Origin: Hamiltosporidium tvaerminnensis
Lineage: Eukaryota > Microsporidia > Dubosqiidae
Direction of reading: 5' to 3'
Length of the DNA stretch: 64,000 nucleotides
NCBI GenBank assembly: GCA_022605425.2
Contig: JAKIMF020000005.1
Location: forward strand, 530,501 to 594,500
In this document: in pieces, positions 8,440-48,381 of the stretch
How the letters are laid out: every line of letters begins with the position of its first letter
Position numbering within the stretch: position 1 is the first letter of the stretch
The notes under the pieces: model-generated
What the model saw: the letters and a program-made list of their open reading frames with translations, nothing else
What the model was told of the DNA's origin: nothing
The model's database searches: none
Program-made: the position numbers and the translations under genes

Positions 8440-8650
8440 CGGTGTCGAGGATAAACAAATAGAAGGTTTCCATTGATTTTTTTAATCTGTTATAACTCAA
8501 AATTAAAGGGGATTGGCCTATATATCGAGTGTGGCTTATTTCTCATCAAAACAGAAAGAATGATTTTCATGCCAATTTTACATACTTTTCGCCAACAGAA
8601 GTTTTTAATGTGGTTATCCTTTTTCATTTTTATTCAAATAACTACAGAAA
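8440..8650 (-). repeat. second short diverged Rep700-related copy
   Basis: Same structure and orientation as the copy at 8195-8400, and therefore a tandem pair. The Rep700 5' region is clear here (a match to 'ccaagcagaaagttttttat' and 'gtggttatcc' on the plus strand at about 8580-8625). The plus-strand open frame at 8473-8700 runs through the repeat and is not a gene. Confidence 0.55.
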
Positions 8651-8659
8651 TATCTTGTT

Positions 8660-9368
8660 ACAATGAATTAATTTTATATGATGAATATAATAAACAATAA
8701 TTAAGAAAAGACATTATTCTGTAACTTGTGACAAGTACTTTCTTATGAATGAATGTTCTTTATATGATTATTAAAATATTGGTTATTTCTTATCGTATTT
8801 TTTTATGATTTAAAATATTTTATCATTCATTTTGTTTTCTAATCAATTTTTAATGTTTACTTTAAATAAATACGTATTCAAATTACTGTTTACTACGGAT
8901 ACTAGACTTTTTTTTCCTGTCCTTTTACTAATTTCATAAAAAATAAAAGCCAGCTTTTAAATATAAACGGGGAAAATTTTCTAATAAACTATTTTAAAAT
9001 TAAGTTAATTTTTATAAGAAAATTAGTTCTCCAAAGAACTTGGAAATTCATCTCTAAAAATACTCACAATTAAAAATTATTTTCATTCCGAATCTATTAA
9101 ATTTAATTATGTCTCACATTTTAATATAGAATTTTTAATAATATTCCCCATATCAAAGGACAATTTTTTTTATTTATTGATTTGAATTATACTCCTAGGT
9201 GAATTATATTTTACAGTTTTGCTCGTAAAATCTCGAATTTTTAGAAATTATTTATTTAATAAAACTTTTATTTTTGCTAATTCTTTAAAAATTTCTCATA
9301 TTATATATTTTAATGTATTTCACAAAAAAACTAAGAAATTTAAATCGATTTGGTTGCAACAACGTTTA
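8660..9368. other. AT-rich intergenic region
   Basis: No gene or repeat family recognised. It leads into CLP1 and presumably carries its promoter, but no element other than the CCCC near the start codon can be pointed to. Confidence 0.35.
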
Positions 9369-9372
9369 CCCC
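9369..9372 (+). promoter_or_regulatory. CCC-type start-proximal motif deciding the CLP1 start
   Basis: CCCC lies seven bases before the ATG at 9379. The longer frame opening at 9313 has no such motif and would add 22 basic residues upstream of the conserved region, so 9379 is the better start. Confidence 0.55.
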
Positions 9373-9378
9373 TTTAAA

Positions 9379-10551
9379 ATGCAAAGAAACCATACAATTT
9401 CAACAGAAAAAGAGATGCCACCAAATTATGAACTGAGATTGGAAATTTCAGAAGAAAAACAACTAAAAATAACAGTTTTACAGGGAAATTGTGAAGTAAA
9501 GGGACAGGAACTTCTTTTAGAGAAAACATATCTATTTAGTTCCATCAAAACGTTTCTTTATACATTTACAGGCTGTAAAATAAAATTAGAAGGTTCTTAT
9601 GATGTGATGTACATGTCTGCACAAACAAATGTTCCAAATATTTTTAAATTTTTTATGTCACAACTTTCAGAACCAACCTTTGAGAAAATATTAGTTATAG
9701 GAAAAGGAAGATCCACATTTTCTACAATATTGACCAATTTCTTTATCAGATTGCACAGAAAAGTACTTTTCACAGATTTGGATCCACAATGTTCAAACAT
9801 AATTTTTCCAGGTACAATTTCTTCAACAATAGTTGATAAATTAATTGATTATAAAGACGGAATATCAGTATACCAGCCACTTGTATATTTCTATGGAAAT
9901 ACAGTTCTAAATAATTTAGAATATTATTTTTTACTTCTTCAAGAATTACAAAATGCGATAATAAAAAAATCACATAAAGATATTCATATATTCATTTGTC
10001 CAAACAACATTTCAGATGAACATTTTAAAAAGATCTGTAATATTTTTGAAATAAATAAAGTTATTGTTATAGGAGATGAAAGACTATTTAGTTTTTTAGA
10101 ATTTGAACCAAAAATAAATATTTGTCAATCTAATGGCTATATCGACGCTTTAAATGATTTAAATTATAATTTTGAAAATGAAAAAATTTCTAAATATTTT
10201 TATGGTTCTGACAACGAATACACACCATATTCTATAAATCTTAAAATAGGCACCAATTTATCTGTAGTTAGTATTTGTGAAGAAAATATTTTACCTGCTA
10301 CGGCACTTCCTTTGGGGACTGTAAGAAAAGCGGGATTTGGAGAGATAAAAGATGTTAGACCGTCTATTGGTTCAGTACTGGCTATTTCTGATAGTGATAG
10401 ACGAGATACTGTACATATTTCACCAGTAATAGGTTTTTTTGTTGTCAATAGCACAGATACAATTACCAAGGTATTGGCACCTCAATCAAAACCACCAAAA
10501 GCCAGTTTTTTAATCCAGGGTGATATAAAATACACGGGTGATTTAAGGTAG
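9379..10551 (+). CDS. CLP1: Clp1-like mRNA 3'-end processing / polynucleotide kinase family protein
   Basis: Clp1 is a subunit of cleavage factor IA in yeast mRNA 3'-end formation and, in animals, an RNA 5'-kinase of the tRNA-splicing complex. The 390-aa product (yeast about 445) shows an N-terminal beta domain (1-95), a P-loop domain with FTDLDPQCSNIIFPGTIS, equivalent to the family's 'vDLDxGQgsixxPGTi', and the C-terminal domain ending in CLP1-type 'LPLGTVR'. The Walker A is abnormal: residues 108-113 read GKGRST where the family has GxTDVGKST, so the loop is shortened and the lysine is Arg. ATP binding or kinase activity may be lost; yeast Clp1 is also a non-kinase scaffold. Start chosen by the CCCC at 9369. 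Flanked by repeat debris, with no operon-like neighbour. Confidence 0.8.
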   Translation: MQRNHTISTEKEMPPNYELRLEISEEKQLKITVLQGNCEVKGQELLLEKTYLFSSIKTFLYTFTGCKIKLEGSYDVMYMSAQTNVPNIFKFFMSQLSEPTFEKILVIGKGRSTFSTILTNFFIRLHRKVLFTDLDPQCSNIIFPGTISSTIVDKLIDYKDGISVYQPLVYFYGNTVLNNLEYYFLLLQELQNAIIKKSHKDIHIFICPNNISDEHFKKICNIFEINKVIVIGDERLFSFLEFEPKINICQSNGYIDALNDLNYNFENEKISKYFYGSDNEYTPYSINLKIGTNLSVVSICEENILPATALPLGTVRKAGFGEIKDVRPSIGSVLAISDSDRRDTVHISPVIGFFVVNSTDTITKVLAPQSKPPKASFLIQGDIKYTGDLR

Positions 10552-12341: not shown

Positions 12342-13067
12342 ATGTCGTTGACAATAAAACAAATATATGAAAGCAATAATATAGAAGAAAATATTGTAAA
12401 ATACAAAAAAGATATTTCAATATCAAAATTGAAAGAAGAAATAATGTATCTACAATCAGAAGAAATCAAAAGAGAAAACTTGTTTCTATTTGTATTTTAT
12501 TGTGAAATTTTATGTGACTTAGTAAAAAATAAAAATTTAATCAGAGAATTTGTAGATACTATTATTACAATGATAGAATGTAAAACAAAAATAAAGAATT
12601 GTATATTTAGAATACGGTTAATCAATGTTTTACTTAAATGTGGGGTATTTAGTGGAATATGTGATTTGGTATTCAAAACCATTAAAACTATAACAAATTG
12701 CAAAATTAGTAATAATTTAGACAAAAAGAGAACTTTTACTTTAGATGATATAAAAGTAGGAAATGACACTGCACAATCTCCTGAATATAAAGATTATGTA
12801 ATAAGAGAATGTGTTAATTCCCTTACTAAAGCATTTAATTTGATTTCTAATACTATGGGATTTCCAGAAATTTCTAAAATAGTCATAGAAAATATTAAAA
12901 ACAATAAGTATGATGAAGATATTTTAATAAAGGAATTCAGTCAAAAACTAGAATCTCATTCTCAATATATTAAAAAATTAAGGAAGGAATACGAGGGTAA
13001 GGCTGTTAGTATCAAAGATTTGGAGGATTTTGAAAAAAAGTGTAAGACATTGCTACCATCAAAATAA
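12342..13067 (+). CDS. NOC2: Noc2-like nucleolar complex protein (60S biogenesis), short form
   Basis: Noc2 pairs with Noc1 and Noc3 to assemble and export pre-60S particles. The 241-aa product matches only the C-terminal half of Noc2: a helical segment FRIRLINVLLKCGVFSGICD, like the family's 'fplqliraLixlsxxtgxfiPla', then the FTLDDIKVGNDTAQSPEYKD block and the terminal 'FxQKLExxxxYIxxxRk' helix. Yeast Noc2 is about 700 aa. Unlike most genes here it has no CCC/GGG triplet before the ATG, and a LINE tail lies 40 bp upstream, so the 5' part of the gene may have been lost or separated; alternatively microsporidia keep only the conserved core. Next downstream is the LINE, then TSR3 and ENP2, two more ribosome-assembly genes. 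Confidence 0.65.
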   Translation: MSLTIKQIYESNNIEENIVKYKKDISISKLKEEIMYLQSEEIKRENLFLFVFYCEILCDLVKNKNLIREFVDTIITMIECKTKIKNCIFRIRLINVLLKCGVFSGICDLVFKTIKTITNCKISNNLDKKRTFTLDDIKVGNDTAQSPEYKDYVIRECVNSLTKAFNLISNTMGFPEISKIVIENIKNNKYDEDILIKEFSQKLESHSQYIKKLRKEYEGKAVSIKDLEDFEKKCKTLLPSK

Positions 13068-13995: not shown

Positions 13996-14749
13996 ACAAA
14001 AAAATTAATCTTTATTTAAAAGTATCACATCGTTTTAGAATAGTGGCCAGTGTTATATTTGTTTTCATGACATTAACGCAGTTCTAGGTTTAACATAAAT
14101 GACTGCTACCCTAACACTCCAAAAGTAACCCTGCGATACCTCATCCCAAAGCCGTTCAATACCAGATGTGTAGAACCTAATTAATAGGCGAGGCAGTTGC
14201 CCGGAGTTCGTTAATGTTTGTTGCATGGAGTGTGAATGAAGGCCGAAGCCCCCCTGGGCACCCCCAAGACTATGCAGCATTCCCACTTACTCTACACTTT
14301 CTGAACCCAATAAACTTATAGCTAAGATATATTTCAGAGATTTACATGGGGTCCACCCAGACAGTGCAATGTCATACCAACAGGTATAACCTGCTACTTA
14401 GCTTTCCCGGCTTTAAATAGGTTTATTGTTTTATATCTCCCAGGCGCTAAGTCTTCTAACCCGAGTGAGCAAGGCTAGGTTTCCATACTTTTACATGGCA
14501 ATTACCTACATGTTCAGCTGCGGTCTGCAATCTGGTTACATAAAAAACTACAAATAAATTTGTAGAAAAAGTTTCTCCTTTTCTTAGACCTCTCCCCCTC
14601 CTAACAACTCCCATGGAACAACCGAAGATGTAATGTGGTTTTATTCCCATTAAAAATCCAAACAATGATCTTTACACCAATTTCACACACTTATTGCCAA
14701 GCAGAAAGTTTTTTATGTGGTTATCCTCCCTCCACACAAAAAAATTAAT
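13996..14749 (-). mobile_element. Rep700 retroposon, full copy with 14-bp target-site duplication
   Basis: Element body 14010-14735 (726 bp, minus orientation) between perfect duplications acaaaaaaattaat at 13996-14009 and 14736-14749. Read on its own strand it starts 'gtggagggaggataaccac', whose ends can pair (GTGG/CCAC), contains a near-perfect palindrome at 14548-14565, and ends '...atgtgatacttttaaataaag'. It has no open reading frame of note, no inverted or long terminal repeats, and is much richer in G+C than its surroundings. It lies directly upstream of the intact LINE, in inverted orientation, possibly inside the LINE 5' UTR. Confidence 0.85.
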
Positions 14750-17700
14750 ATTCCTAATTAAAATAAATTTAAATCAGTATTTTAAAAGTTTTTTTTTTGA
14801 TTATGGGTAGAAAGAAAAATGTTAGCAGCGAAATATCGAATAATACCAAAATAAAGGCTGCAAACGACGCTGATGAGGTGAAAAAGAGTGATAGTGAGAT
14901 ACAAAAATGTAAGCTACACCCACCGGCGATTCCCCTACCTTCCTCCTCCTACACAACAATAACACCTCCACCACCAAGCCAAACATGCAGTAAAATGCAA
15001 AATAGTGGGCTTGACACCTTACCTTCGCCTAATGCACCAGTTCCCTCTTCGGTTGAAGTCTCTGCGTGCGAGCCATCGTACGACATGACAAGCCCCTGTA
15101 CTCTAGCTATTCCGGAAGGTAACAGGCTAATGGCATTGCGGACGATATTCGATTCCGTAACAGCCGACCCGAAGGAATGGCCTCGAATTGTTTTTTTTGC
15201 AGTACAGACAAGGTTTGAAAGAATGCCAAGAAATGGCTGGACAGAGCTTCACAGGTACTATAATGAGAAATTCGGCTGCACTGAAACTCTCGAAGTGTTA
15301 AAAAAATTGGCACAAAGTGAGATGGGAAAGGATGTAAAATCAGAAGAGAATGGAGAGCGACGTAGAATCGCCACTTGTCTCGCTGATACATGCACCTTGA
15401 CCGACACCACGGAGTACATAAACCTGAGAGATAAATTCTTGAGTAAAATCAAAGAAATCTCTGAGAACGAAATTGGAAAAGTAGTGGTCCGAACTAGAAA
15501 ACATCCAAATGAATTGGTTGATAGTAAAGTTCTGGATCTCATTAATCGAGTAGTCGGTGAATATGCAGGAGCTCATGTACCTGAGTCAATTACGGAAGCC
15601 GCGTATATCATGCAAGCTGCGCAGGTATGCTATGACGAGGCAACACGTAAAGAGAAGCCTAGATCCGCTTGGAAGGAAAACATAGAAAGTAAAATTTCTA
15701 AGTTAGTACTTTCCAAAGATCTCCTCGAGAAAGCTCGTAAGCAGGAAAAGCTCTCCACTTCGGAAACGAAGAGCCTTAAGAAAATCATGCGAGAGTTTAA
15801 TTTAAACTTGAGCAGCGTAACTGATCTTTCTGAGGCTTTAGTTAAGAAGAATGAGTCTTTGAATGTTTACGAGAAAAAAATTACGATGCATGAAAGTAGG
15901 AAGCAATTCCGAAAAGAGAATCGTATGTTTGAGCTTTTCCGAGGTCGATTTTATCGTGGGTTATCTGAGCGTGTGGAATCCGAGCATGTGGTTAGCCGTG
16001 ATGAAATTGTGAGTTTTTGGTCTACAATGTGGAACAAAAATGATGACACAGTCACGTACGATGATTATTTGATTCCATTTGTATCAGATAATCATCCGAC
16101 CACGTTTCCTTCACTTGATGAATTTGTGAATATCATTAATTGGCTCCCTAATTGGAAAGCTGCTGGAATTGATGGTATTTACAATTTTTTCATTAAGAAA
16201 CTTACAACTCTTCACAAATATCTTTATGATATTGTGAAAGTTATATGTTTAGAAGGAACACCTCAAGCTGATTGGTTTTACTGCGGGCTTACGTATTTGA
16301 TACCGAAAGGAATTCCACGAAGAGGCTCTGACTACAGGCCAATCACTTGTATGTCCAACCTCTATAAGTTAACGACAAAGTGTGTAACGAAAGTCGTTCA
16401 ACTTGAAGTGGAAAGGCGAGGGTTGCTTGCAGAGAACCAACTAGGGGCGGTAAGAGGTGTGCAGGGAGCGAAAGAGCAGGCTCTACTGAATATTGCCTTA
16501 AATAAAGAGTATGGAAACAATCTTAAGGCAACATGGATTGATGTTAAAAAAGCTTATGATTCAATAGATCATGCTTATTTAACTCAATGCATTGAAAACC
16601 TTAATTTACCTGATTGGATCCTGAAATTTATTAAGGTAATTATATCCAAATGGAAAATTGATATATCAGTAGGGCCTGAAAAAATCATGAGCAAGAAGAT
16701 TGATAGAGGGATTCTACAAGGAGATAGTCTGTCACCTTTGTTATTTGTGTTGTGTATGGATCCATTAAGCCGAAAGCTTAATGAAAAATACACAAAAGTG
16801 ACAGTACAAACAGATGCAGAATCCCATTCTACTAATCATCTCTTGTTTATTGATGATCTTAAGCTCCTTGCAAAAGACAGCTCCACATTGAGTGCTATGA
16901 CAGGCGAGGCAAAGGAATTTTTAGAGGTGATTGGCTTAGAGATTAACAAAGAGAAGTCAGCCACAAATGATACGTGTTGTGAAGATACTGCTACTCTTCT
17001 AGAAGGTGTTAGTGTTTACAAATATTTAGGAATAATAGAAGATAGCAGAGGAATCCCAACACGTAGCTCATTTGAAGAAGTACAGAGCAAACTTATATCA
17101 AGAGTTGAAAGACTTTGTCACACTAGATTAAATGCAAAAAATTTATTTTCTGCAATCAATCAACATGCGATATCGTTAATCAACTACCACATAGGAGTAC
17201 TTCGACTTGAACCGGCTGACTTCTCTAAGTTAGATGATGCAGTGCGTGCGGTGTTGGTTAAAAATAAGATACATCTCCGCCCAGGATGTAAAGAGCGGTT
17301 GTATCTTCCTAGAACAGAACTTGGAAGAGGCCTACATAGTGTTGAGTTGCGAAGCGAACATATGCTTCTGCAACTCTTGGATTGTCTGGAAAAAAGTAAA
17401 GAAATATCAACTAGACGAGCAGCAATCCTCAAGGTGGAGAATAATAATAAAACCCATCTTGCACTAATAAAAGGCTTCTTAAAAGTAAAGTACAGGTTGG
17501 CAGAAGAAGTCACTAAGAAAAGTTTAGAAGAAGCTCAACTTGCAAAACTATATAACGAAATAGAAAAACGAAAACTCCATTCAAAGTTATATAATGCAAG
17601 GAAAAATGAGCTTGTGAGTGTTAGTGACTCTTCAAGATGGCTAAAGAGAGGAAATATTAGGCCACGAAATGAAGCTGTGTTCTGCTATATCCAGGATAGA

Positions 17701-18610
17701 AATGTATTCTGGGGAGCAGATGGTGTGTGTCAACATTGCGGGAAGTCTGGTAAGACTGTGGATCATCTAGCAACTAGATGTGAAAAAATGCTAGGCCATG
17801 ATTACACTAGACGGCATAATGAAGTGGTTAGATGCCTACACCTTCTCCTTCTAAATAGATATAAGTTTAAGTCTTCAAAACGAATAAGGAGCCACTCAGT
17901 TCAAGAAATTCTTGATAATGAGTATGCAGAGATAAGAGTGGACACCAGAATTAAAACTGATGTTAAAATTCGGAATAACAGACCAGACATATTTATTTTA
18001 GATAAGAAGAAGAATAAGATAACACTCATTGAAGTAGGAATCACTTCCCAAGATTCACTTCAAATAGTTGAAACTGAAAAACTTAGGAAGTATGACCTGC
18101 TAGCCAATGAGTTGGGCCTTATTTATAAGTGTAGTGTTGAGATAATCCCTTATGTGATGACCTGGGACGGTATTGTGACAAAATACCATAAATCTCATCT
18201 TAAAAGACTAGAAATACCCATGAATGTAGAAGCATACATTCAGTCTATAGTACTTAAAAAGACAGTCGAAACTATTTCCTTTGATCGACGAAGAGGACTT
18301 GAGTCAGGACTAAATGCCGAAGAGAGCTGGGAGAGAGCGTCAATGGGTGTTATTATGAGATCAGAGATGCATGAGGAACCAATACCCCCTTTAAAAGAAG
18401 CGAAAACAGAGGAAGATGGTGCCAAAAATTTTAAACCAAAATATAAAGCCCCCTTTATTTTACAAGGAGGAACCACTTTAGAGGAACCGACCAATAACAT
18501 AAATGAAGAGTCGGATTTGGAAGAAGAGACAAAAGTGGTTAAAGAGGTAGAAGAAAACATGTAAAAAATGGTAAAAAATATTTTAACCCAGAATTTTATT
18601 AAATAAATTA
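14750..18610 (+). mobile_element. full-length RLE-LINE (R2/R4-like non-LTR retrotransposon), intact
   Basis: A single-ORF non-LTR element. The exact 5' end is not defined; comparison with the decayed copy at 59.7-63 kb shows similar sequence for at least 40 bp before the ORF. The 3' end is '...ttttaacccagaattttattaaataaa', shared with five other fragments in this window. No clean target-site duplication was found for this copy. It separates NOC2 from TSR3. Confidence 0.8.
14797..18564 (+). CDS. non-LTR retrotransposon polyprotein: reverse transcriptase + CCHC + restriction-like endonuclease
   Basis: 1255 codons, uninterrupted (a start at 14803, MGRKK..., is equally plausible). N-terminal ~430 residues: low-complexity Pro/Ser region then basic helical region, with no C2H2 finger that I can see. 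The RT domain (about 440-800) has YRPITCMSNLYK, then WIDVKKAYDSIDH at 579 (motif A), RGILQGDSLSPL (motif B) and FIDD at 684-687 (motif C; FIDD in place of the usual YADD/FADD). A zinc knuckle C-x2-C-x8-H-x4-C follows at 978. The restriction-like endonuclease has RPD at 1062-1064 and Glu 15 residues after the Asp (IEVG). RT-CCHC-PD-(D/E)xK in one ORF is the architecture of the R2/R4/CRE group. The C-terminus is acidic. All catalytic motifs are present, so it may be active. Confidence 0.85.
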   Translation: MIMGRKKNVSSEISNNTKIKAANDADEVKKSDSEIQKCKLHPPAIPLPSSSYTTITPPPPSQTCSKMQNSGLDTLPSPNAPVPSSVEVSACEPSYDMTSPCTLAIPEGNRLMALRTIFDSVTADPKEWPRIVFFAVQTRFERMPRNGWTELHRYYNEKFGCTETLEVLKKLAQSEMGKDVKSEENGERRRIATCLADTCTLTDTTEYINLRDKFLSKIKEISENEIGKVVVRTRKHPNELVDSKVLDLINRVVGEYAGAHVPESITEAAYIMQAAQVCYDEATRKEKPRSAWKENIESKISKLVLSKDLLEKARKQEKLSTSETKSLKKIMREFNLNLSSVTDLSEALVKKNESLNVYEKKITMHESRKQFRKENRMFELFRGRFYRGLSERVESEHVVSRDEIVSFWSTMWNKNDDTVTYDDYLIPFVSDNHPTTFPSLDEFVNIINWLPNWKAAGIDGIYNFFIKKLTTLHKYLYDIVKVICLEGTPQADWFYCGLTYLIPKGIPRRGSDYRPITCMSNLYKLTTKCVTKVVQLEVERRGLLAENQLGAVRGVQGAKEQALLNIALNKEYGNNLKATWIDVKKAYDSIDHAYLTQCIENLNLPDWILKFIKVIISKWKIDISVGPEKIMSKKIDRGILQGDSLSPLLFVLCMDPLSRKLNEKYTKVTVQTDAESHSTNHLLFIDDLKLLAKDSSTLSAMTGEAKEFLEVIGLEINKEKSATNDTCCEDTATLLEGVSVYKYLGIIEDSRGIPTRSSFEEVQSKLISRVERLCHTRLNAKNLFSAINQHAISLINYHIGVLRLEPADFSKLDDAVRAVLVKNKIHLRPGCKERLYLPRTELGRGLHSVELRSEHMLLQLLDCLEKSKEISTRRAAILKVENNNKTHLALIKGFLKVKYRLAEEVTKKSLEEAQLAKLYNEIEKRKLHSKLYNARKNELVSVSDSSRWLKRGNIRPRNEAVFCYIQDRNVFWGADGVCQHCGKSGKTVDHLATRCEKMLGHDYTRRHNEVVRCLHLLLLNRYKFKSSKRIRSHSVQEILDNEYAEIRVDTRIKTDVKIRNNRPDIFILDKKKNKITLIEVGITSQDSLQIVETEKLRKYDLLANELGLIYKCSVEIIPYVMTWDGIVTKYHKSHLKRLEIPMNVEAYIQSIVLKKTVETISFDRRRGLESGLNAEESWERASMGVIMRSEMHEEPIPPLKEAKTEEDGAKNFKPKYKAPFILQGGTTLEEPTNNINEESDLEEETKVVKEVEENM

Positions 18611-18666: not shown

Positions 18667-19173
18667 ATGAAAAAAATAATTTATGAATTTGACCAATGCG
18701 ATAAGAAAAGATGTTCAGCACAAAAGCTGTTAAGAAGTAATAAAGTAATAGTGGGTAGAAGAAACACATATTTCAAAGGAATACTGCTTTCTCCAAATAG
18801 TAAAAAAGTAATATCTATTGAAGATAAAGATGTAATGGAAAAATACGGATTGGGTGTCATAGATTGTTCATGGTCACAAATGGAATCCATAAACGTAAAA
18901 GGAAATTCTAGAATACTTCCTTTTCTAGTGGCAGTAAATCCTGTAAATTATGGTAAACCTTTCAAACTAAACTGTGTAGAAGCAATGGCCGGTGCTCTAT
19001 ATATATGTGGATTCGAATCAGAAGCTTTTGAAATTTTTGAAGGATTTAATTATTGTGATACTTTCTTCAAAATTAATGAGGAAATTCTTGAGAGGTATTC
19101 TAAATGTAAAAATGGCGAAGAAATAATCGAAGAACAAACTAAATATTTAAATGAGAATAGAAGAGAGAAATAA
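18667..19173 (+). CDS. TSR3: Tsr3, 18S rRNA aminocarboxypropyltransferase
   Basis: Tsr3 transfers the 3-amino-3-carboxypropyl group of S-adenosylmethionine to a hypermodified pseudouridine in the decoding region of 18S rRNA, a late cytoplasmic step of 40S maturation. The 168-aa protein covers the conserved enzyme: EFDQCDKKRCSAQKL near the N-terminus, KYGLGVIDCSWSQ at 58-70, and the SAM-site signature FLVAVNPVNYGKPFKLNCVEA at 86-106. The variable C-terminal tail found in larger homologs is absent. CCC at 18659-18661 precedes the ATG by five bases. It starts about 60 bp after the LINE 3' end and is followed by ENP2 on the same strand. Confidence 0.93.
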   Translation: MKKIIYEFDQCDKKRCSAQKLLRSNKVIVGRRNTYFKGILLSPNSKKVISIEDKDVMEKYGLGVIDCSWSQMESINVKGNSRILPFLVAVNPVNYGKPFKLNCVEAMAGALYICGFESEAFEIFEGFNYCDTFFKINEEILERYSKCKNGEEIIEEQTKYLNENRREK

Positions 19174-19597: not shown

Positions 19598-20728
19598 ATG
19601 AATTGTTCAAATTTAAAAATTATTCAATCATTTGAATTTCCAGAAGCATGTATAGCAATGAAAATGACAGAAGATAAAACACATATTATAACCTGTGGTT
19701 CATATAAACCACAGCTTCGAATATACGATTTAAATGAATTGAATTTGAAAGTAGAGAGACATATGGAGAGTGAAGGGAAAAAAATAGAAATTTTAGAAGA
19801 AGATTATGGAAAAATAGCTATCTTACGAAATGATAGGTATATAGAGTTTCATGCTAAGTATGGATTACATCATTTAGTAAGAATTCCTAAATTAGGAAAC
19901 GATTTATCTTTTAATAAAATTTCTGCTGAATTGCTTATTTGTGGAGACTCTTCGGATATTTATCGATTTAATTTAGAACAAGGAAGATTCCTCAAGTCTT
20001 TGATAAGTGAGTGTGACAATATAAATTCTATAAAAATCAATCCTGTTCATAATTTAATTTGTGGTGTTGGAAACAAAATCACATTCTTTGATCCGCGTAG
20101 TAGAAATTGTTTAAAAAATTTTGTATCCGAAAACGTAGAAGAATATTCTTCAATTTCTTTTAATAATAACGGTATAAATTTCTGTGTTGGAACAGAGGAT
20201 GGAAATATAATTGTTTACGATTTGAGAAGTAAAAAGGAACTTTTTATAAAAAAACACCAAAATGAAAATAAAATTAAAAAAATTTTATATTCCGATAAAA
20301 ATATTTACAGTTTGGATCAAAAAACTCTGAACGTTTGGAATTTAAATCAAGATTTGGTAAAAATAGAAACGGGTTTCGTACAAAATACATTTATAGTAGA
20401 TGATGGATTTGTATCTATTGGTGGAGATACACCAGAAATACATTGTTACTATTCATCCATACTCGGTAAATCTCCTACTTGGTGTACACAAATGGATACT
20501 CTAGATTTAAATTCTAAAAATATAAATTTAGATAATTTTGTAATCATCACCAAAAAAGAAATGCAAGATTATAATTTACAATCCTATTTAGAAAAAGGAA
20601 AAATATTTCAACATTTAAATCGTTACATGATTGATTCAAATCTTTACAATTCCTTAACTAATAAAAATACCAAAATTGAAACCAGAAAAACCAAAGAAAT
20701 TAAAAAAAATTATAAATTAATTAAATAA
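19598..20728 (+). CDS. ENP2: Enp2/NOL10-like nucleolar WD40 protein (SSU processome)
   Basis: Enp2 (NOL10) is a nucleolar WD40 protein of the small-subunit processome, needed for early 18S rRNA processing. The 376-aa product shows the family's N-terminal beta-propeller: IIQSFEFPEACIAMKMTED, SYKPQLRIYDLNELNLKVER, IEFHAKYGLHHLVRIPK and DIYRFNLEQGRFLKSL, all diagnostic of NOL10/Enp2 rather than of generic WD40 proteins. The propeller is followed by a short basic tail. Yeast Enp2 is about 700 aa, so the C-terminal half is largely lost, in keeping with microsporidian shortening. CCCC is immediately before the ATG. It converges with MCM3 across a ~145-bp spacer. Confidence 0.9.
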   Translation: MNCSNLKIIQSFEFPEACIAMKMTEDKTHIITCGSYKPQLRIYDLNELNLKVERHMESEGKKIEILEEDYGKIAILRNDRYIEFHAKYGLHHLVRIPKLGNDLSFNKISAELLICGDSSDIYRFNLEQGRFLKSLISECDNINSIKINPVHNLICGVGNKITFFDPRSRNCLKNFVSENVEEYSSISFNNNGINFCVGTEDGNIIVYDLRSKKELFIKKHQNENKIKKILYSDKNIYSLDQKTLNVWNLNQDLVKIETGFVQNTFIVDDGFVSIGGDTPEIHCYYSSILGKSPTWCTQMDTLDLNSKNINLDNFVIITKKEMQDYNLQSYLEKGKIFQHLNRYMIDSNLYNSLTNKNTKIETRKTKEIKKNYKLIK

Positions 20729-20873: not shown

Positions 20874-23066
20874 TCAAACAAAGAAAATATAACCTTCTTG
20901 TACAACGATAATTTCATCCTCTCTTTCCATTATCTTTAATATTTCCATTAGCTTACTGTCATCAATAAAAGGTTCACCCATACGAATTTTTAAATCACTC
21001 ACACTTATAAATGTACTTTTATCATTTAACCACATTTTATGTAGAAAATCAAAAACCCTTTGTTTTTCTATGTCCTTAAAATCCCTTAAACCATCACCTG
21101 GTTTTTCAACGTTACTTTTATCTCCAAAATCACCCTTTCGCTCTTCTAAATCATCTCTTTCATTTATTTCTTCTAAAATAATTTCTTCATTCACTAAATT
21201 TTTTCGAGTTTCAATTTTTCTTTTTTTACTTCCTTTAAATTTACTTTCCTCACTCATAATTTCTTCCATCATCTCAACAACACTAATAGAATCTTCTTCT
21301 TCAATTCTATAACACATTCTTAATTTAGAGTGCGCCGTTGCAAGTCTAACAAGTGTTTCTAAGAAACGAGGTGTCAAATCTGGTTTGGACTGTCTAGTAC
21401 TTACATAATAATTAGAAATATAATCACCTGCTTCCTTAGTCATAACAGGTCGTATTTCTTTTGCAGCTTTGAAATATTTTTTTAATTCTTTTTGAGAAAT
21501 ACAGTCATTACTGATATTATAATTACTCTTACTTTGGATTTTTCCGCTTCTATTGTTCAATACATGGTGTGCAATTTCTCTGTCTCTTTCATTTGTGTCT
21601 TTTACAACCATTACAATATCAAATCTGCTAATAATACTGTTCCCCATTCCTACATTTTCTCCAACTGACATTTTTTCAGAATAATATCCTAAAACAGGAT
21701 TTGCAGCTGCTATTACACTGCATCTCGCATTTAAAATACAATAAATACCGCCTTTGGCAACTGTAACACTCTGTTGTTCCATGACCTCGTGTATTCCTAC
21801 TCTATCACCCGCACTCATTTTATCAAACTCATCTACACAACACACACCCATGTCACTAAGAACCATGGCACCTGCTTCTATAACTGTATCTTCACCCATC
21901 TTTATACAACATGTAAGGCCTGCTACACTACATCCTTTTCCCGTAGTAAGAACAGATATTGGTGATACTGAGTTTACATATCTAAGAAATTGACTCTTTG
22001 CTGTCCCTGGATCTCCAACCAAAAGTAAATTTAAAGATCCTCGAATTTTACTTCCATTTTTCATTTTTATTTCGTTTCCACCGACCAATAAAAGTGAAAC
22101 GGCTTTTTTTATAGTTGAATGCCCATAGATAGAAGGTGCAATGGAGTTGTAAATATTTTGCAAAGGAATCGGAGAGACAATAGAGTAAGAATTAAAAATA
22201 TTTGTATTTGAGGTTTCAATCGTATTTTCAATATCATTTTCTTTAATCGAATTGAAATTTGTGGAATTTTCTTTATTTTCATTTCTAAGATTTTCTATTG
22301 AATTTTCTTTGAATTCTTCGTTTTCTTTTTCACAATTTTTATTGCCAAAACTTAATAATTTGATATTATTGACGAGAACAACGGTAGTAAAATAATTTGG
22401 TATTTCTTTACTACCTTGAGACATACATCGATATACACCATAAACCAAAACACGGTCTCCTGGTTTTACAGTATCTACCAAATCATCTGATAATATACAA
22501 ATAATATTTCTTGGTAGCTGAGAAGGTGGTGCATTTTCAGGCATTTCTTGTATTTTGATACTTTGATAGTCCATATACGAAGAAAGACCAAAATCAGAAA
22601 CAAGAGGTGTATTGTTATGATCTTTAATTGGATAATATATAGAAGTAGGCGGTAATAGACTTAGCATAGTAGAATCTCTATATTCCTTTTCATAAAAAAC
22701 AATGTCGTTGGTTGTATCTGTATGATGAACACTTAAAACTACTTTGGGCTGCACAGGCGTTATATGAGTAACAATGCCCTGAACACACACAATTTTTGAT
22801 AAAAATTGAGAACTTAATGTTCGGGGTGTTAGTATAGAAGAAGGTAAAGAACCCGTTGTACCAATATGCTTGATATTATATGAAGATAATATATTTTCTA
22901 CGTGTGGTATTAAAGTAAGAGGATTGTTGATTAAATAAGATGTAAATTCTTTCGAAAATGTTCTAAATGCATCCAAGTTTAATACTAAACGAGGACAAGG
23001 TTGTATTTTTAGATTTGTTATGTATGAAGTGAAGGATGAAAGAAATGAAGAAATATTATCTGACAT
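20874..23066 (-). CDS. MCM3: DNA replication licensing helicase subunit Mcm3
   Basis: Mcm3 is one of six subunits of the replicative MCM2-7 helicase ring. The 730-aa product has the MCM N-domain (LTPRTLSSQFLSKIVCVQGIVT at 79-100; QEMPENAPPSQLPRNI, the Mcm3-type form of this block, at 173-188), a poorly conserved Asn/Glu-rich linker at about 245-290, and the AAA+ core: Walker A GDPGTAKSQ at 351-359, Walker B VCCVDEFDKM near 408-417, sensor ANP, and arginine finger SRFD near 480. C-terminal winged-helix-like region at 660-730. A charged insertion at 605-655 precedes it. On the coding strand CCCC lies three bases before the ATG. The length is close to other short Mcm3 proteins. Confidence 0.92.
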   Translation of the reverse strand: MSDNISSFLSSFTSYITNLKIQPCPRLVLNLDAFRTFSKEFTSYLINNPLTLIPHVENILSSYNIKHIGTTGSLPSSILTPRTLSSQFLSKIVCVQGIVTHITPVQPKVVLSVHHTDTTNDIVFYEKEYRDSTMLSLLPPTSIYYPIKDHNNTPLVSDFGLSSYMDYQSIKIQEMPENAPPSQLPRNIICILSDDLVDTVKPGDRVLVYGVYRCMSQGSKEIPNYFTTVVLVNNIKLLSFGNKNCEKENEEFKENSIENLRNENKENSTNFNSIKENDIENTIETSNTNIFNSYSIVSPIPLQNIYNSIAPSIYGHSTIKKAVSLLLVGGNEIKMKNGSKIRGSLNLLLVGDPGTAKSQFLRYVNSVSPISVLTTGKGCSVAGLTCCIKMGEDTVIEAGAMVLSDMGVCCVDEFDKMSAGDRVGIHEVMEQQSVTVAKGGIYCILNARCSVIAAANPVLGYYSEKMSVGENVGMGNSIISRFDIVMVVKDTNERDREIAHHVLNNRSGKIQSKSNYNISNDCISQKELKKYFKAAKEIRPVMTKEAGDYISNYYVSTRQSKPDLTPRFLETLVRLATAHSKLRMCYRIEEEDSISVVEMMEEIMSEESKFKGSKKRKIETRKNLVNEEIILEEINERDDLEERKGDFGDKSNVEKPGDGLRDFKDIEKQRVFDFLHKMWLNDKSTFISVSDLKIRMGEPFIDDSKLMEILKIMEREDEIIVVQEGYIFFV

Positions 23067-27260: not shown

Positions 27261-27988
27261 GGTGGAGGGAGGATAATCTCATAAAAAACTTTCTGCTTGT
27301 CAATGAGTGTGTGAAACTGGTGTGAGAATTATTGTTTGGATTTTTGGTGGGATTACAACCACACTACATCTTCGGTTGTTCCATGGGAGTTGTTATGAGG
27401 AGGAGAGGTCTAAGAAATGGAGAAACTTTTTCTACAAATTTATTTGTAGTTTTTTATGTAACCAGATTGTAGACCGCAGCTGAACATGTAAGTAATTGCC
27501 ATGTAAAAGCATGGAAACCTAGTCTTGCTCACTCGGGTTAGAAGACTTAGCGCCTGGAAGATATAAAAATAAAAACCATTTAAAGCCGGGAGAGCTAAGT
27601 GTCAGTTATACCTGTTGGTATGACATTGCACTGTCTAGGTGGACCCCATGTAAATCTCTAAAATATATCTTAGCTAGAAGTTTATTGGGTTCAGAAAGTG
27701 TAGAGTAAGTGGGAATGCTGCATAGTCTTGGGGGTGCCCAGGGGGGCTTAGCCTTCGATCACACTCCATGCAACGGACATTAACGAACTCCGGGCAACTG
27801 ACTCGCCTATTAATTAGGTTCTACACACACCTGGCAGATGAAAGGCTTTGGGACGTAGGTATCGCAGGGGTTACCGATGGAGTTTTGGGGTAGCAGTCAT
27901 TTATGTTAAACCTAGAACTGCGTTAATGTCATAAAAACAAATATAACACTTGCCACTATTTTAAAAAGATGTGATATTTTAAATAAAT
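27261..27988 (+). mobile_element. Rep700 retroposon, well-preserved full copy
   Basis: About 728 bp in plus orientation, starting gtggagggaggataa and ending '...aaaagatgtgatattttaaataaa'. It aligns nearly end to end with the copy at 14010-14735, including the palindrome ctacaaatttatttgtag at 27432-27449. No convincing target-site duplication was found around it, unlike three other copies. Confidence 0.85.
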
Positions 27989-29118
27989 TTCATATCAAAA
28001 AGAAACCAGGAAAATACCGGTAGTAAAAAAAGTAAATTAAATAAAATAAGTGAAAATATCAACAAATTATAAAAAAAATATCGAAAACAAAGAAGTTTTT
28101 TTTCATAAGCAACGTAGCTATAGAATCGATCAATAGTTGAACAGGGACTTTAATATTTTTGCTTATATTTTTTTAGCTGGGGCCTGGCGTTCAGATATTT
28201 TTCACTGTAAAATTCGCATTTTTGGAAAATTTTCTGTGTATACAAAATCGAAAAAAAGAAAATTCAAGTTTACACAATATAAAATCAAGAAAAATATCAT
28301 AAGATTTTTTTCTTTCCAATTAGTGCTGAAAAAATGTTTTTTAATCAGAAATATTAAAACTGTGTACTTTATTGATGTATTTTACTAATTTCTTTTATTT
28401 TATAATTTTACATAAACTACTAATAATTAAAATTTGAACGAATAGACCGGAAATTTTTTAAAGTAGTATTTTTAGGCCAAAAAGTTTCTAGGATAAATCA
28501 AGAAAAAGGTATATATATTTAGGTAAATTTAATAATATAAGTTTATAAGAAGAAATTGGATTTTATTATTAATATTCTGAAAACTCCTTTAACTGGCATT
28601 TTATTTTGGTTATCTGTAAATTAAGTATTTTTAAAACCTTTCGAAAAATAATTATTGATGTGAAATAGGATAATTTTCATATGCGTATTATTGTTTTTTT
28701 GTATGTTTTAAATTTTATTTTATTAATTGAAAGAATTATAATGCGTAAAAACCAGTACATCATAGCCTCGCGATATTAAAAAACAATATTTAAACTTTAT
28801 TTGTACATGGTTTTTGATCTTTTAATTTTGAAATATGTATTTTTGATTGGATTGTAAGAATATATCAAAAAAACTCTAGTTATCACATATTCTTGGAAAT
28901 AATTATAAAATATTATTTATAGAGTCGAAATAAAACGAAGCTCAGGATAAAATTCATATAGAAAAGGGTTAAATCGCCAAGCTTATTGGCCAAAACCGGT
29001 TGGTAGCAGTAGTAGGTTCGATTAAAATAGACTCTGTTTAATTTTAACTAAACCAAGATTATGAAAACTATTCGAAAACATTTGAAAACATCCCAAAAAG
29101 AATATCATTCAATTATTA
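27989..29118. other. gene-free stretch
   Basis: A plus-strand 83-codon frame at 28137-28388 has no start motif and no family resemblance. Otherwise AT-rich sequence without recognised features. Confidence 0.35.
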
Positions 29119-29749
29119 TGCAAATTCGAAGATACACAGTAGACTTTATTTAAAAGTATCACATCTTTTTAAAATATTGGCCAGTGTTATATTTGTTTCA
29201 TGACATTAACGCAGTTCTAGGTTAAACATAAATGACTGCTACCCCAACACTCCATCGGTAACCCCTGCGATACCCGTCCAAAGCCTTTCATCTGCCAGGT
29301 GTGTAGAACCTAATTAATAGGCGAGGAAGTTGCCCGAGTTCGTTAATGTCCGTTGCATAGGTGATCAGGCAGAAGCGTTCACATGCATATTCCACTTACT
29401 GTACACTTTTGCACAAACTTTGTAGATATATTTCAAGATTTACATAGTCCACTGATATGTCATACCAGTTACCTGTACTTAGTTTCTGGTTTTAATATTT
29501 TGTTTTATTCCGTGTTTACGTGCAAGGCTGGTTTCATGCTTTTATGGCATATCTACATGTTCGCTGCGGTCTGATCTGTTAATAAAAACTAAAATAATTT
29601 TGTAAAAAGTCTCCATTCTTAGACCCCTCTTCATACAACTCCCATGGAACAACCAAAATCTGGTGGTTGTATTCCACCAAAATCCAAACAATGTCCTCAC
29701 ACCGTTCCATACATTGCCATTTATTGGTACCCATCTGCAAATTCGAAGA
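29119..29749 (-). mobile_element. Rep700 retroposon with 14-bp target-site duplication, deletion-riddled
   Basis: Element body 29133-29735 (603 bp, minus orientation) between perfect duplications tgcaaattcgaaga at 29119-29132 and 29736-29749. Compared with the full copies it has lost about 120 bp through many one- to few-base deletions, with few substitutions, mostly in its 5' half. Its 3' end reads '...gatacttttaaataaag' plus an extra tail of about 12 bp before the duplication. Confidence 0.85.
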
Positions 29750-36653: not shown

Positions 36654-37620
36654 TCAGATATATATTTGAAGCTGTGTTCTGCTATATCCAGGATAGAAAT
36701 GTATTCTGGGGAGCAGATGGTGTGTGTCAACATTGCGGGAAGTCTGGTAAGACTGTGGATCATCTAGCAACTAGATGTGAAAAAATGCTAGGCCATGATT
36801 ACACTAGACGGCATAATGAAGTGGTTAGATGCCTACACCTTCTCCTTCTAAATAGATATAAGTTTAAGTCTTCAAAACGAATAAGGAGCCACTCAGTTCA
36901 AGAAATTCTTGATAATGAGTATGCAGAGATAAGAGTGGACACCAGAATTAAAACTGATGTTAAAATTCGGAATAACAGACCGGACATATTTATTTTAGAT
37001 AAGAAGAAGAATAAGATAATACTCATTGAAGTAGGAATCACTTCCCAAGATTCACTTCAAATAGTTGAAACTGAAAAACTTAGGAAGTATGACCTGCTAG
37101 CCAATGAGTTGGGCCTTATTTATAAGTGTAGTGTTGAGATAATCCCTTATGTGATGACCTGGGACGGTATTGTGACAAAATACCATAAATCTCATCTTAA
37201 AAGACTAGAAATACCCATGAATGTAGAAGCATACATTCAGTCTATAGTACTTAAAAAGACAGTCGAAACTATTTCCTTTGATCGACGAAGAGGACTTGAG
37301 TCAGGACTAAATGCCGAAGAGAGCTGGGAGAGAGCGTCAATGGGTGTTATTATGAGATCAGAGATGCATGAGGAACCAATACCCCCTTTAAAAGAAGCGA
37401 AAACAGAGGAAGATGGTGCCAAAAATTTTAAACCAAAATATAAAGCCCCCTTTATTTTACAAGGAGGAACCACTTTAGAGGAACCGACCAATAACATAAA
37501 TGAAGAGTCGGATTTGGAAGAAGAGACAAAAGTGGTCAAAGAGGTAGAAGAAAATATGTAAAAATGGTAAAAAATATTTTAACCCAGAATTTTATTAAAT
37601 AAAATTTCAGATATATATTT
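36654..37620 (+). mobile_element. 5'-truncated RLE-LINE copy with 14-bp target-site duplication
   Basis: LINE sequence from 36668 to about 37606 is nearly identical to the intact copy (from codon 957 of the polyprotein to the 3' end; only a few differences over ~940 bp). It is flanked by perfect duplications tcagatatatattt at 36654-36667 and 37607-37620. The 5' truncation, intact 3' end and duplication are the hallmark of target-primed reverse transcription, and the near-identity shows a recent event. Confidence 0.93.
36668..37561 (+). pseudogene. C-terminal fragment of LINE polyprotein (zinc knuckle + endonuclease)
   Basis: The reading frame retains the CCHC knuckle, the PD...E endonuclease motif and the acidic tail without any stop. 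An apparent start further upstream (36431) lies in unrelated flanking sequence including Rep-B, so the longer open frame is a chance fusion of flank with LINE and is not a gene. One substitution (KITLIE to KIILIE) lies next to the endonuclease Glu. Confidence 0.8.
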
Positions 37621-42174: not shown

Positions 42175-42330
42175 TTCGTATTGCATTTGTGGAGGGAGGA
42201 TAACCACAAAAAAATTTCTCTTTGGAAAAGGGGGGGGAAAAGTGGTGTGAAGATCATTTTTTGTTTTTTTGGGGGAAAAAAACACACCAACCCCCCTTTT
42301 TTTTTCAAAGGGATTAAAAAAGAGGGGGAG

Positions 42331-42368
<38 letters not shown>

Positions 42369-42397
42369 TAAAATTATAAAAAAAAAAAAAAAAAAAA

Positions 42398-42437
<40 letters not shown>

Positions 42438-42450
42438 AAACCCAAACAAA

Positions 42451-42512
<62 letters not shown>

Positions 42513-42563
42513 GAAAAAAAAAAAAAAAAAAAAAAAAATAACAAAAAAAAAACAAAAAAAAAC

Positions 42564-42608
<45 letters not shown>

Positions 42609-42614
42609 AAAAAG

Positions 42615-42646
<32 letters not shown>

Positions 42647-42679
42647 AAGGGAAGAGGGGAGCCAACCCACCCACCAAAC

Positions 42680-42717
<38 letters not shown>

Positions 42718-42791
42718 AAAAAAAAAAAATAAAAAAAAAAAAAAAAAAAAAAGAAAGGAAAAAAAAGGTAAAAAAAGGAAAAAAAAGAGGG

Positions 42792-42888
<97 letters not shown>

Positions 42889-44754: not shown

Positions 44755-46023
44755 TTATTCATTAACAATTGTAAATTTGTCTACTTCAAACATTTCATCA
44801 ACAGAGAAACAATCTAAATTTTCTTTTTCTTTCACATTTAAAATTTTTAAGCCACTGAAAATAGATTTACACCTGAAGAAAACTTCAATGGGAAAAACAT
44901 TATTGACATCATCTGTAGAACAGGTAAATTCTATATTTTCAGAAGATCCTCTTTCTTTACAACTTCCAATATCCCATTCAATAAATTCTTTACCCAAAAC
45001 ACATTTATCACTTTCTAAAATTACATTTTTAATATTTTTAAGTGGAAAAAAAAGTTTTAAGCCTTCACAGTTTTCTACTTCTGTTACTATTTCCATAGAA
45101 ATTTGATATTTGTCTATCCCTACCTCTGATGGCCAAAAAGTAAAAACAATAGGAAGAAATATTTCTGAATATTTCCATTTCATCAGAGCTACATTTTTAT
45201 CTACAGGAAATCCTTTTGTACCTTTAAGTTTGTTCTTTTTACTTGAATCTTTATCTAAGTTTGGATTAAATTTTAAATTTTCTTTTTTTTGAATCGAAAA
45301 TTCAATTTCACAATTTTTGTATTCTTCATTGCGTACCAATAAATTCATATCTCCTTCAACCTCACAATTCTTTATATTATTTTCTTTATCCACCACGATC
45401 TTTATCTTTTCCTTAATACCGATAAGAATAGATTCTTCTCTATCTTCATTAATAACAGGTTTCTTTTCTTTTTTGATTTCCTCTTTTTCTTCAACAGTTT
45501 TTGACTGTAAAATTGTTTCTTTTCTTATTTCTATTTCTAAATTTTTTACTTTTTCAAGTTGTAAATCAATATCAGACATTTTCTTTCTCATTTTAAGTTC
45601 TTTTTGTTTTTGTATCGCATCCAATTCTTTATTTTTCATCATCATTTCATGTATTTTTTCTTCTTGACTTTCCATTTCAACAATATTGTGTAAACTTTCA
45701 GTGTCTAAAATAAAAAAAGAATTTTTGTTAATAATATCGTCTAAAACAAAAAGCAAAGATGGAAAATCGTAGGGAATAAGAGTTTTCAACAATTTAATCG
45801 CATTATATTCTTGAAATCCATATTCAGTAACCAAAACATAATATACATCTTCCTTTTCTAAAAAATAATACGTAAACATTTCTGTTATTAAAGAAGTCCC
45901 TTTCTTTGATGCAGAAGTAAATTCAGAAAGTATTAAATCAATAACTTCCTTTTCCATTAGTTCTGTAGTTTTTATAAAAATATCTTCTGTAATTGAATTG
46001 TATGTAAAAAATCCTATTAGCAT
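44755..46023 (-). CDS. RET2: coatomer subunit delta (delta-COP)
   Basis: Delta-COP is part of the COPI coat for Golgi-to-ER traffic, related to AP mu chains. The 422-aa product has an N-terminal longin-like domain (1-105), a charged coiled linker (about 115-185), and a C-terminal mu-homology domain: VEGDMNLLVRNEEYKNCEIE at about 223-242, then FNPNLDKDSSKKNKLKGTK and FPVDKNVALMKWKYSE, the delta-COP signature corresponding to 'hPNxdkxxf...FPVgxxvgvLkWR', then LPIVFTFWPSEVG and a beta-rich end. Yeast Ret2 is 546 aa; the shortening is mainly in the linker. On the coding strand CCC (plus 46032-46034) lies eight bases before the ATG. Confidence 0.88.
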   Translation of the reverse strand: MLIGFFTYNSITEDIFIKTTELMEKEVIDLILSEFTSASKKGTSLITEMFTYYFLEKEDVYYVLVTEYGFQEYNAIKLLKTLIPYDFPSLLFVLDDIINKNSFFILDTESLHNIVEMESQEEKIHEMMMKNKELDAIQKQKELKMRKKMSDIDLQLEKVKNLEIEIRKETILQSKTVEEKEEIKKEKKPVINEDREESILIGIKEKIKIVVDKENNIKNCEVEGDMNLLVRNEEYKNCEIEFSIQKKENLKFNPNLDKDSSKKNKLKGTKGFPVDKNVALMKWKYSEIFLPIVFTFWPSEVGIDKYQISMEIVTEVENCEGLKLFFPLKNIKNVILESDKCVLGKEFIEWDIGSCKERGSSENIEFTCSTDDVNNVFPIEVFFRCKSIFSGLKILNVKEKENLDCFSVDEMFEVDKFTIVNE

Positions 46024-47139: not shown

Positions 47140-47595
47140 TATGGAAACTCAACTTTTCGGCGCGAAGTTAGAAAATTTGGAGCTTTTGATATATAAAAAA
47201 CATAATATTTGCAGGTCCTTAATCTAAATCGGAAGTTATACAATATTCATTGGTTTTGCACGCCTGGTTGAACCCCATTTAAGTACATGTTTGTCATGGT
47301 TGGATGCCTTTTTTTCGCAAAGTGTATAATTTGTGGAATATTGCTGATACCGGGGATACTCAAGATAGCTTACTACATGCGATTGCACATCGATATCCAA
47401 AAATAATGAAATCTTGCTGCCTTTTCACCCATTTAATTGGCTCAACATATATATATAATATGAGTTGTAAGCATGTAGGTATCGTAGGAAAATTTTATGT
47501 TTCAGGATTCCAGTTATTTATGTTAAAACCATAACTGCCTTAATCTCATTAAAAAAATATTAAACGCTCTACTCCTTTAAAATGATGTAATGTCT
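47140..47595 (+). repeat. decayed Rep700 copy (3' two-thirds)
   Basis: In register with full copies: 'tatggaaactcaac', 'tggttgaaccccatttaagta', 'agtgtataatttgtggaata', 'cccatttaattggctcaacat', 'tgtaggtatcg' and 'tatttatgttaaaaccataactgcctta', ending near 'ttaaaatgatgtaatg'. It is diverged by substitutions, with only moderate length change, and is clearly old. The plus-strand open frame at 47304-47534 is chance. Confidence 0.7.
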
Positions 47596-48381
47596 TTCTT
47601 ATAAAAACATATTTATAATAGAATGTCGATATAAATATCTCTAATATCGCTATATACCCCCACTTCTCATTTTTTTTGAAAACTATGAAGCTATAATACA
47701 ATTTATTTATCAAAGATGGTAAGACACAGAGGTATATAGCGTTGTTTCTCTCTCAAAAACTTTAAATAAATTTGATTGACCATATTTTAAATTCAACTTT
47801 GGAATAAATTTGTTTAGTTCGCGAACTAATCTCTTTTTTTTGCTTTCTCAAAATTGATAAATTACTTAACCATTTCATCTAATTTATTTTTTTAAATCAC
47901 TTAAACAAGCTACTTGCGAGTAAGATATTTTTCAAATCTAATTCAAACAATGTAATAACTGGAAAATCTTTACAACTCTTTTAAATGGGTATTTAGAAAG
48001 ATTTTATCAAATAATTATTTCTGCCGAATGTAATTTTCGTAGAAATATTTAATTGATTCGGAAATTTATAGCAGCATCGGCATATATATTCGGCAAAAAA
48101 AGGAAAAAATTACACAATATAATTATTATTTTGTATATTATAAATCGGATATAGACCAAGCGCATGTATTAAATGATATATTTATAAGTAATATGTTTCT
48201 TTTTGTAATAAAATACTTAATTTTTTCCTTAGGATAATCAATAATTAGTGTGATTTTTTTTATTAACCTAATTATTAAGATGATATATAGTGAATTACCC
48301 TCATATTTATTTGTATTTTTTAAAGTAAAAAGGTACAAGAATTACAAATTTTGCCGATTCAATTTTTTAATAATTATATTT
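47596..48381. other. gene-free stretch
   Basis: AT-rich sequence downstream of the secreted-protein gene; nothing recognised. Confidence 0.35.

Follow-up and report, generated by a model that had tools for sequence, protein, structure and literature searches.

Rep700, a non-coding SINE-like retroposon of Hamiltosporidium tvaerminnensis, very probably mobilised by a resident type of LINE

The genome of the microsporidian Hamiltosporidium tvaerminnensis contains a short, non-coding repeat, Rep700, that is very probably a non-autonomous retroposon mobilised in trans by the LINE found beside it or by a close relative of that LINE. Since Rep700 and the LINE carry the same kind of insertion footprints, Rep700 is most likely a SINE-like hitch-hiker copied by the enzymes of such a LINE. 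An earlier note on the same DNA had proposed a SINE-like element moved by the machinery of a LINE with a restriction-like endonuclease (RLE), and this proposal is supported by the analysis; none of the findings that it had named as contrary appeared in the material examined. The window analysed here is a stretch of 64,000 nucleotides, and coordinates refer to it unless a contig is named. Rep700 and its flanking target-site duplications (TSDs) are represented in the window by the following features.

13996 to 14009, no strand: left TSD of Rep700 copy A, exact 14-nt repeat acaaaaaaattaat
14010 to 14735, minus strand (RNA sense): Rep700 copy A, 3' end ...CTTTTAAATAAAG at 14010
14736 to 14749, no strand: right TSD of Rep700 copy A, exact 14-nt repeat acaaaaaaattaat
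27262 to 28002, plus strand: Rep700 copy, full length, without a detected duplication, absent from the list in the earlier note
29119 to 29749, minus strand: Rep700 copy B with terminal 14-nt duplications; 65 small deletions and 0 insertions relative to the consensus
56269 to 56946, plus strand: Rep700 copy C with terminal 14-nt duplications; 64 small deletions and 0 insertions relative to the consensus
47511 to 47605, plus strand: diverged Rep700 fragment (consensus 633-727)
42189 to 42287, plus strand: diverged Rep700 fragment (consensus 1-102), followed by low-complexity sequence
8528 to 8620, minus strand: diverged Rep700 fragment (consensus 9-103)

Rep700 is abundant and has sharply defined ends. 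Across the genome searched (21,638,905 bases, 17 contigs), the 23-nt pattern of its 5' end has 515 matches and the pattern of its 3' end 594, allowing up to 2 mismatches, and reversed control patterns have 0 matches. If most of the counted ends belong to full-length copies, the family occupies about 0.4 Mb, or about 2% of the genome. A first look at the genome returned 1378 Rep700 candidates, of which the best 40 score 93-100% identity. Genome copies of Rep700 and the LINE were drawn from the best-scored 40 in each of three first-look sets, with 1378, 986 and 1326 candidates; as best-scoring copies, they over-represent young, full-length insertions. The working set of 60 Rep700 copies combines 30 loci (window copy A included), two of the three other window copies and 28 of 30 extra loci. 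Left out were copy B, in which the 5' end motif is absent, and loci L095 and L099, whose 5' ends were not located. The consensus of the 60 copies is 727 nt long with a mean pairwise identity of 96.1%, and its G+C content of 42.2% compares with 27.9% for the window, in agreement with the earlier description of the repeat as G+C-rich.

The same description held that Rep700 is without a reading frame, TIR or LTR, and the results agree with it. The longest ATG ORF of the consensus is 58 amino acids, within the range of shuffled sequences (median 53, 95th percentile 90), and neither terminal inverted nor terminal direct repeats occur in the two copies searched for repeats, the sole repeat present in both being one internal 12-nt inverted pair. 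A longer, ORF-bearing master element, which the earlier note regarded as evidence against its proposal, is not supported either by the counts of full-length copies or by orphan 3' ends: 66 of the 82 consensus matches in the fetched DNA and the window are full length, and the three 3' ends fetched from about 20 without a listed 5' partner all proved to be Rep700 (two full length, one truncated). Rep700 is thus non-coding, short, dispersed and present in many copies, as is a SINE.

The first kind of footprint is the target-site duplication. By direct reading, exact 14-bp duplications flank copy A (acaaaaaaattaat, 13996-14009 and 14736-14749), copy B (tgcaaattcgaaga, 29119-29132 and 29736-29749), copy C (ttttctcctcataa, 56269-56282 and 56933-56946) and the 5'-truncated LINE of the window (tcagatatatattt, 36654-36667 and 37607-37620), all as first reported. 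Over the larger sets, a perfect duplication of at least 10 nt was present in 49 of 60 Rep700 copies (mean 13.5, SD 1.8, median 13) and 19 of 26 LINE copies (mean 13.3, SD 2.2, median 13). The Rep700 lengths are distributed as 10 nt (2 copies), 11 (1), 12 (12), 13 (13), 14 (9), 15 (4), 16 (5), 17 (2) and 19 (1), and those of the LINE range over 10-19 nt with a mode of 13; an initial unanchored search had returned 8-28 nt. No duplication of at least 10 nt was found in 11 of 60 Rep700 and 7 of 26 LINE copies, the latter including L039, which had an empty left flank and was scored as a miss. The full-length LINE of the window has a duplication of only 8 nt. The LINE set comprises 19 of 20 loci with a 5' piece (L034 was dropped), six truncated loci, among them the truncated copy of the window, and the full-length window copy.

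These duplications are not due to chance, since flanks taken from different copies shared at least 10 nt exactly in only 16 of 992 pairings for Rep700 (first 32 copies) and 16 of 650 for the LINE. The lengths of the two families are indistinguishable (KS p 0.87, Mann-Whitney p 0.65), and the comparison that had been set beforehand as a possible refutation instead yielded coinciding distributions. The equality of the duplications claimed by the earlier note therefore stands, while their fixed length of 14 bp gives way to a distribution centred on 13. Since the lengths vary, a fixed 14-bp staggered cut is rejected.

The second footprint is the sequence of the target site, and no other finding argues as strongly for a single kind of endonuclease behind the Rep700 and LINE insertions. 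Empty sites were rebuilt for 49 Rep700 and 18 LINE insertions (one LINE site was dropped for its short flank), and all 67 duplication sequences in this test are distinct. Both families favour T at -8 (35/49 Rep700, 15/18 LINE), A or T at +1 (49/49, 18/18), T at +2 (36/49, 14/18) and A at the second base past the duplication (30/49, 12/18). T at -2 occurs in 38/49 Rep700 and 11/18 LINE sites, the LINE count taken alone not being significant (p = 0.11). When the column frequencies of Rep700 and the LINE are compared at 17 offsets, register 0 gives the highest correlation on each side (r = 0.56 and 0.59). If each LINE site is shifted by a random offset, the corresponding p values are 0.013 on the left and 0.0007 on the right, and 0 of 10,000 trials matched both sides jointly. 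A nick-site preference common to element and presumed partner is what is expected of a TPRT retroposon.

Turning to the LINE itself, the window contains three copies.

14803 to 18607, plus strand: full-length LINE, of the type presumed to mobilise Rep700, starting at the ORF ATG and ending in TTATTAAATAAA
14803 to 18564, plus strand: LINE ORF, about 1253 amino acids, with RVT_1, CCHC and an RPDx..IEV endonuclease motif
36654 to 37620, plus strand: 5'-truncated LINE with 14-nt duplications
59678 to 62550, minus strand: second LINE copy, diverged and 5'-truncated, deletion-rich over about 60.9-62.5 kb

The LINE ORF matches the reverse transcriptase family RVT_1 (PF00078, E = 2.6e-27), and its matches among solved structures include the LINE-1 ORF2 and R2 proteins. 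In the C-terminal region, where Pfam reports no domain over the CCHC and PD...E segment, the motifs C-x2-C...H...C and RPD...IEV can be read. The ORF was aligned with eight homologues from records named as microsporidia, apicomplexans, octopus and wasp. Of the 9 aligned rows, 8 have the full CCHC motif, the exception being P0057, in which Y replaces the second C; 8 rows contain PD and 7 contain PD...E, with gaps in the others. Judged by this C-terminal combination of CCHC and PD...D/E motifs, the LINE belongs to the RLE type. The R4/Dong clade has a restriction-like endonuclease. That name may be applied to the LINE of the window as a label following usage for microsporidian LINEs in the available part of PMC3614468, not as a placement by tree.

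The LINE was recently active, since 29 of 30 sampled loci are 97.7-100% identical to the window copy over the main match; locus L046 is the window copy itself. In 14 of the 20 fetched 5' pieces (L061-L080), similarity begins within 3 nt of the ORF ATG; another 4 start up to 24 nt before the ATG and 2 inside the element. The LINE is thus apparently leaderless, and its promoter must sit inside the ORF or come from the flank.

Further similarities between the families are seen at the junctions. Extra bases at the 5' junction occur in 37 of 49 Rep700 copies with a duplication (1-5 nt) and in 11 of 15 full-length LINE copies with a duplication (up to 10 nt). They are absent from all 4 truncated LINE copies, partly by construction, since the starts of those copies were set by BLAST ends. 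Among 5'-truncated Rep700 copies, L095 has a 15-nt duplication and L016 one of 9 nt, which is near the chance level. The genome counts of 5' and 3' ends are 150:671 for the LINE and 515:594 for Rep700, a difference that fits cDNA synthesis begun at the 3' end and often stopping early on the longer template. At the 3' junction of Rep700, a variable number of extra bases (0-20 nt, usually beginning with G or GT) lies between AAATAAA and the duplication. The idea that these bases represent 3' transduction of source flank is not supported, as prefix matches among right flanks are few: of 1770 pairs, 3 agreed over 9 nt, a number judged to be near chance. A genome pattern search returned 2 exact and 17 inexact places.

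The 3' ends quoted in the earlier note, TTTTAAATAAAG for Rep700 and TTATTAAATAAA for the LINE, were both recovered. The likeness of the two tails holds for a 9-nt suffix, TTAAATAAA, and fails beyond it: aligned over 60 nt, the tails are no more alike than controls given the same 9 terminal nucleotides, which did as well at rates of 0.50 (shuffled) and 0.47 (genomic). There is no Rep700-LINE homology above shuffles at the 5' end or over the whole length, and no stable 3' hairpin is predicted for either element. Neither a shared tail nor a shared 3' hairpin is therefore supported as a link between them. This lack of tail sharing bears on the rival that survives best, in which the mobilising enzyme is of the same type but comes from another, related LINE family in this genome. 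Of the named sequences among the matches listed, those nearest to the LINE ORF are reverse transcriptases named Hamiltosporidium, and among the 120 matches listed of 526 there are many such enzymes at 59-93% identity. Since the species holds so many diverged relatives, the exact partner is left among its LINE families. However, the site signature and duplication lengths that match Rep700 were measured for the family of the window LINE, and that family is young and abundant (671 3' ends). A different LINE family is regarded as unlikely, though it is the likeliest of the alternatives.

A second rival takes Rep700 to be a retroposed cellular non-coding RNA gene, that is, a family of processed pseudogenes descended from a single structural RNA. 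Its defined ends and the absence of homology to the LINE would suit such an origin. Against it, Rfam gives no match at the gathering score anywhere in the window, and at a relaxed threshold one Rep700 copy produced six weak matches with E values of 0.33 to 4.2; Rep700 is accordingly rejected as an Rfam RNA. The consensus folds much as its shuffles do (z = -1.1, 20 shuffles), so that an unusually stable structured RNA is not supported either. Older copies, 69.7-75.4% identical to the consensus, testify to long-term propagation, with which a gene source is still compatible. On balance, this origin seems improbable. No tRNA gene was found in the window, and Rep700 has no Pol III A or B boxes above the level of shuffles: the best B-box match in the RNA sense is 7/10, equal to the shuffle median, and in the antisense 8/10, at the 95th percentile. 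With internal T-runs of 5, 5 and 6 in addition, Rep700 is rejected as a Pol III element. It is not a SINE in the strict sense of having a tRNA, 7SL or 5S head and A/B boxes, yet it works like one.

MITE-like elements and solo LTRs make short fixed duplications, and although a non-coding repeat with hundreds of copies and sharp ends could suggest a non-autonomous DNA transposon of the MITE kind or a solo LTR, the lack of terminal repeats in the two copies searched, duplications varying over 10-19 nt, a 5'-truncated copy with a 15-nt duplication and the extra junction bases make this highly implausible.

With mobilisation by a LINE of the window type or a close relative as the preferred reading, the following course of events may be proposed. 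An RNA polymerase II transcript of Rep700 would run from GTGGAGGGAGG to just past UUAAAUAAA(G); the RNA expected with these ends, GTGGAGGGAGG to just past AAATAAAG, would carry poly(A) about 20 nt beyond. The resident LINE family, or one closely related to it, would supply the reverse transcriptase/endonuclease that takes up this RNA, its protein thus acting in trans. The LINE enzyme would nick the bottom strand at approximately T-N5-T-W/W-T (W = A or T, nick at the slash), cDNA would be primed at the 3' end of the Rep700 RNA, the top strand would be cleaved some 13 nt downstream, and a few extra bases would be added as the cDNA is joined. According to the available part of PMC10542269, most of the 500 most expressed host genes have A[A/U]UAAA about 20 nt before their 3' ends, and the 9-nt suffix common to Rep700 and the LINE overlaps this host poly(A) signal. 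Both families end in AAATAAA plus 0-20 variable nucleotides, and a poly(A) tract is not consistently present in either; a short A run occurs at one LINE locus (L060).

A more specific and rather doubtful idea is that copying by the LINE reverse transcriptase begins at the host poly(A)-signal motif, the terminal UUAAAUAAA, and requires neither a family-specific nor a poly(A) tail. This reading of the motif as a start point is retained since Rep700 and the LINE both end there without a consistent poly(A) tract. If it were true, any polymerase II RNA ending near UUAAAUAAA could be copied, and Rep700 would be the RNA that best exploits this opportunity.

The closest known system is the EhSINE1/EhLINE1 pair of Entamoeba histolytica. 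In the available parts of PMC2996970 and PMC3118788, EhSINE1 is described as non-coding, about 0.5-0.6 kb long, without a tRNA or 7SL head and with duplications of variable length, and its believed mobiliser, EhLINE1, as having a CCHC motif and a PD(X)10-14D nicking endonuclease. Like Rep700, EhSINE1 is head-less, no SINE in the strict sense, and paired with an RLE-LINE. The systems differ in that EhSINE1 has a 3' end of about 70 bp in common with EhLINE1 and internal repeats of 26-27 nt (both from the same part of PMC2996970), while Rep700 has only 9 terminal nucleotides in common with the LINE. The EhLINE1 endonuclease prefers GTATT (PMC3118788, available part), which differs from the consensus of the Rep700 and LINE sites. 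Ingi/RIME and LiTc/NARTc of trypanosomes are likewise pairs of autonomous and non-autonomous elements in parasite genomes; in the available part of PMC2996970, RIME and NARTc share significant sequence with their partners, whereas Rep700 has no such similarity to the LINE. Classical Pol III SINEs derived from tRNA, 7SL or 5S RNA resemble Rep700 in being non-coding and dispersed, with variable duplications and an inferred dependence on LINEs, and they differ from it in the features of Pol III transcription and RNA-family membership considered above.

Rep700 may be the first microsporidian SINE-like element to be described with an identified type of LINE partner. In the titles and opening parts of abstracts that were searched, no microsporidian SINE is described together with its partner, and the word SINE is absent from the microsporidian repeat and genome papers searched by word. 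For Nosema bombycis, the available text of PMC3614468 attributes 1.04% to LINEs labelled Dong-R4 and tallies 0.18% as 'SINE' without further description. The published H. tvaerminnensis assembly (21.64 Mb, 17 contigs) is reported, in the part of PMC10542269 available, to contain 39.56% interspersed repeats, including 25.45% 'other'. One Rep700 pattern had no match in viral contigs, and another had none in bacterial and archaeal contigs. As a head-less, SINE-like element linked to a nicking RLE-LINE, Rep700 parallels the arrangement seen in Entamoeba, a distant lineage. Rep700 and the LINE also make it possible to test how a partner RNA is recognised by a LINE with which it has almost no sequence in common.

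The age of individual copies must be read with caution in this assembly. Identity to the consensus is 85% for copy C and 80% for copy B, with 15 and 23 substitutions, and their divergence consists otherwise of deletions only: 65 deletions and 0 insertions over 29145-29719, and 64 and 0 over 56284-56919. Under changed alignment settings, 55 deletions and 0 insertions were counted in copy C, and 40 and 39 in 59 other copies together; the choice of those 59 by high score may have excluded gapped copies. In the diverged LINE (59678-62550) there are 265 small deletions and 9 insertions over the whole copy, concentrated at about 60900-62550. A single deleted base is mostly A on the plus strand of the assembly, both in copy C (sense plus; 34/47, p 2.7e-9) and in the diverged LINE (sense minus; 115/185, p 1.7e-23); copy B is without this bias (14/40, p 0.21). 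Since the bias follows the strand of the assembly and not that of the element, it suggests that the consensus was left unpolished in repeats, and not a biological cause. Judging from two copies, the deletion-only stretches are therefore probably unpolished assembly consensus, and real deletion hypermutation is less likely. The explanations that copies B and C are old, or were mutated during copying, were dropped in view of the few substitutions, the deletion-only change and the strand-following bias. As long as this suspicion stands, substitutions alone should be used to estimate how old the copies in this assembly are.

Several smaller observations concern the surroundings of these elements. 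Directly after the Rep700 5' fragment, 42330-42888 is low-complexity and internally repetitive. On contig C1, at about 1630056-1630467 and 1666196-1666648, Rep700 3' ends occur in pairs 340 bp apart, and at both sites a LINE 5' end lies 27 or 68 bp beyond them, an arrangement that resembles a duplicated composite block. Of the ten ORFs scanned in the window, four have no Pfam family. Host genes recognised by Pfam are Clp1 (9313-10551), Noc2 (12342-13067), a Ribo_biogen_C protein (18667-19173), a NOL10-like WD protein (19598-20728), an MCM helicase (20874-23066) and an adaptor-complex medium subunit (44755-46023). The Ribo_biogen_C ORF begins about 60 bp past the end of the full-length LINE.
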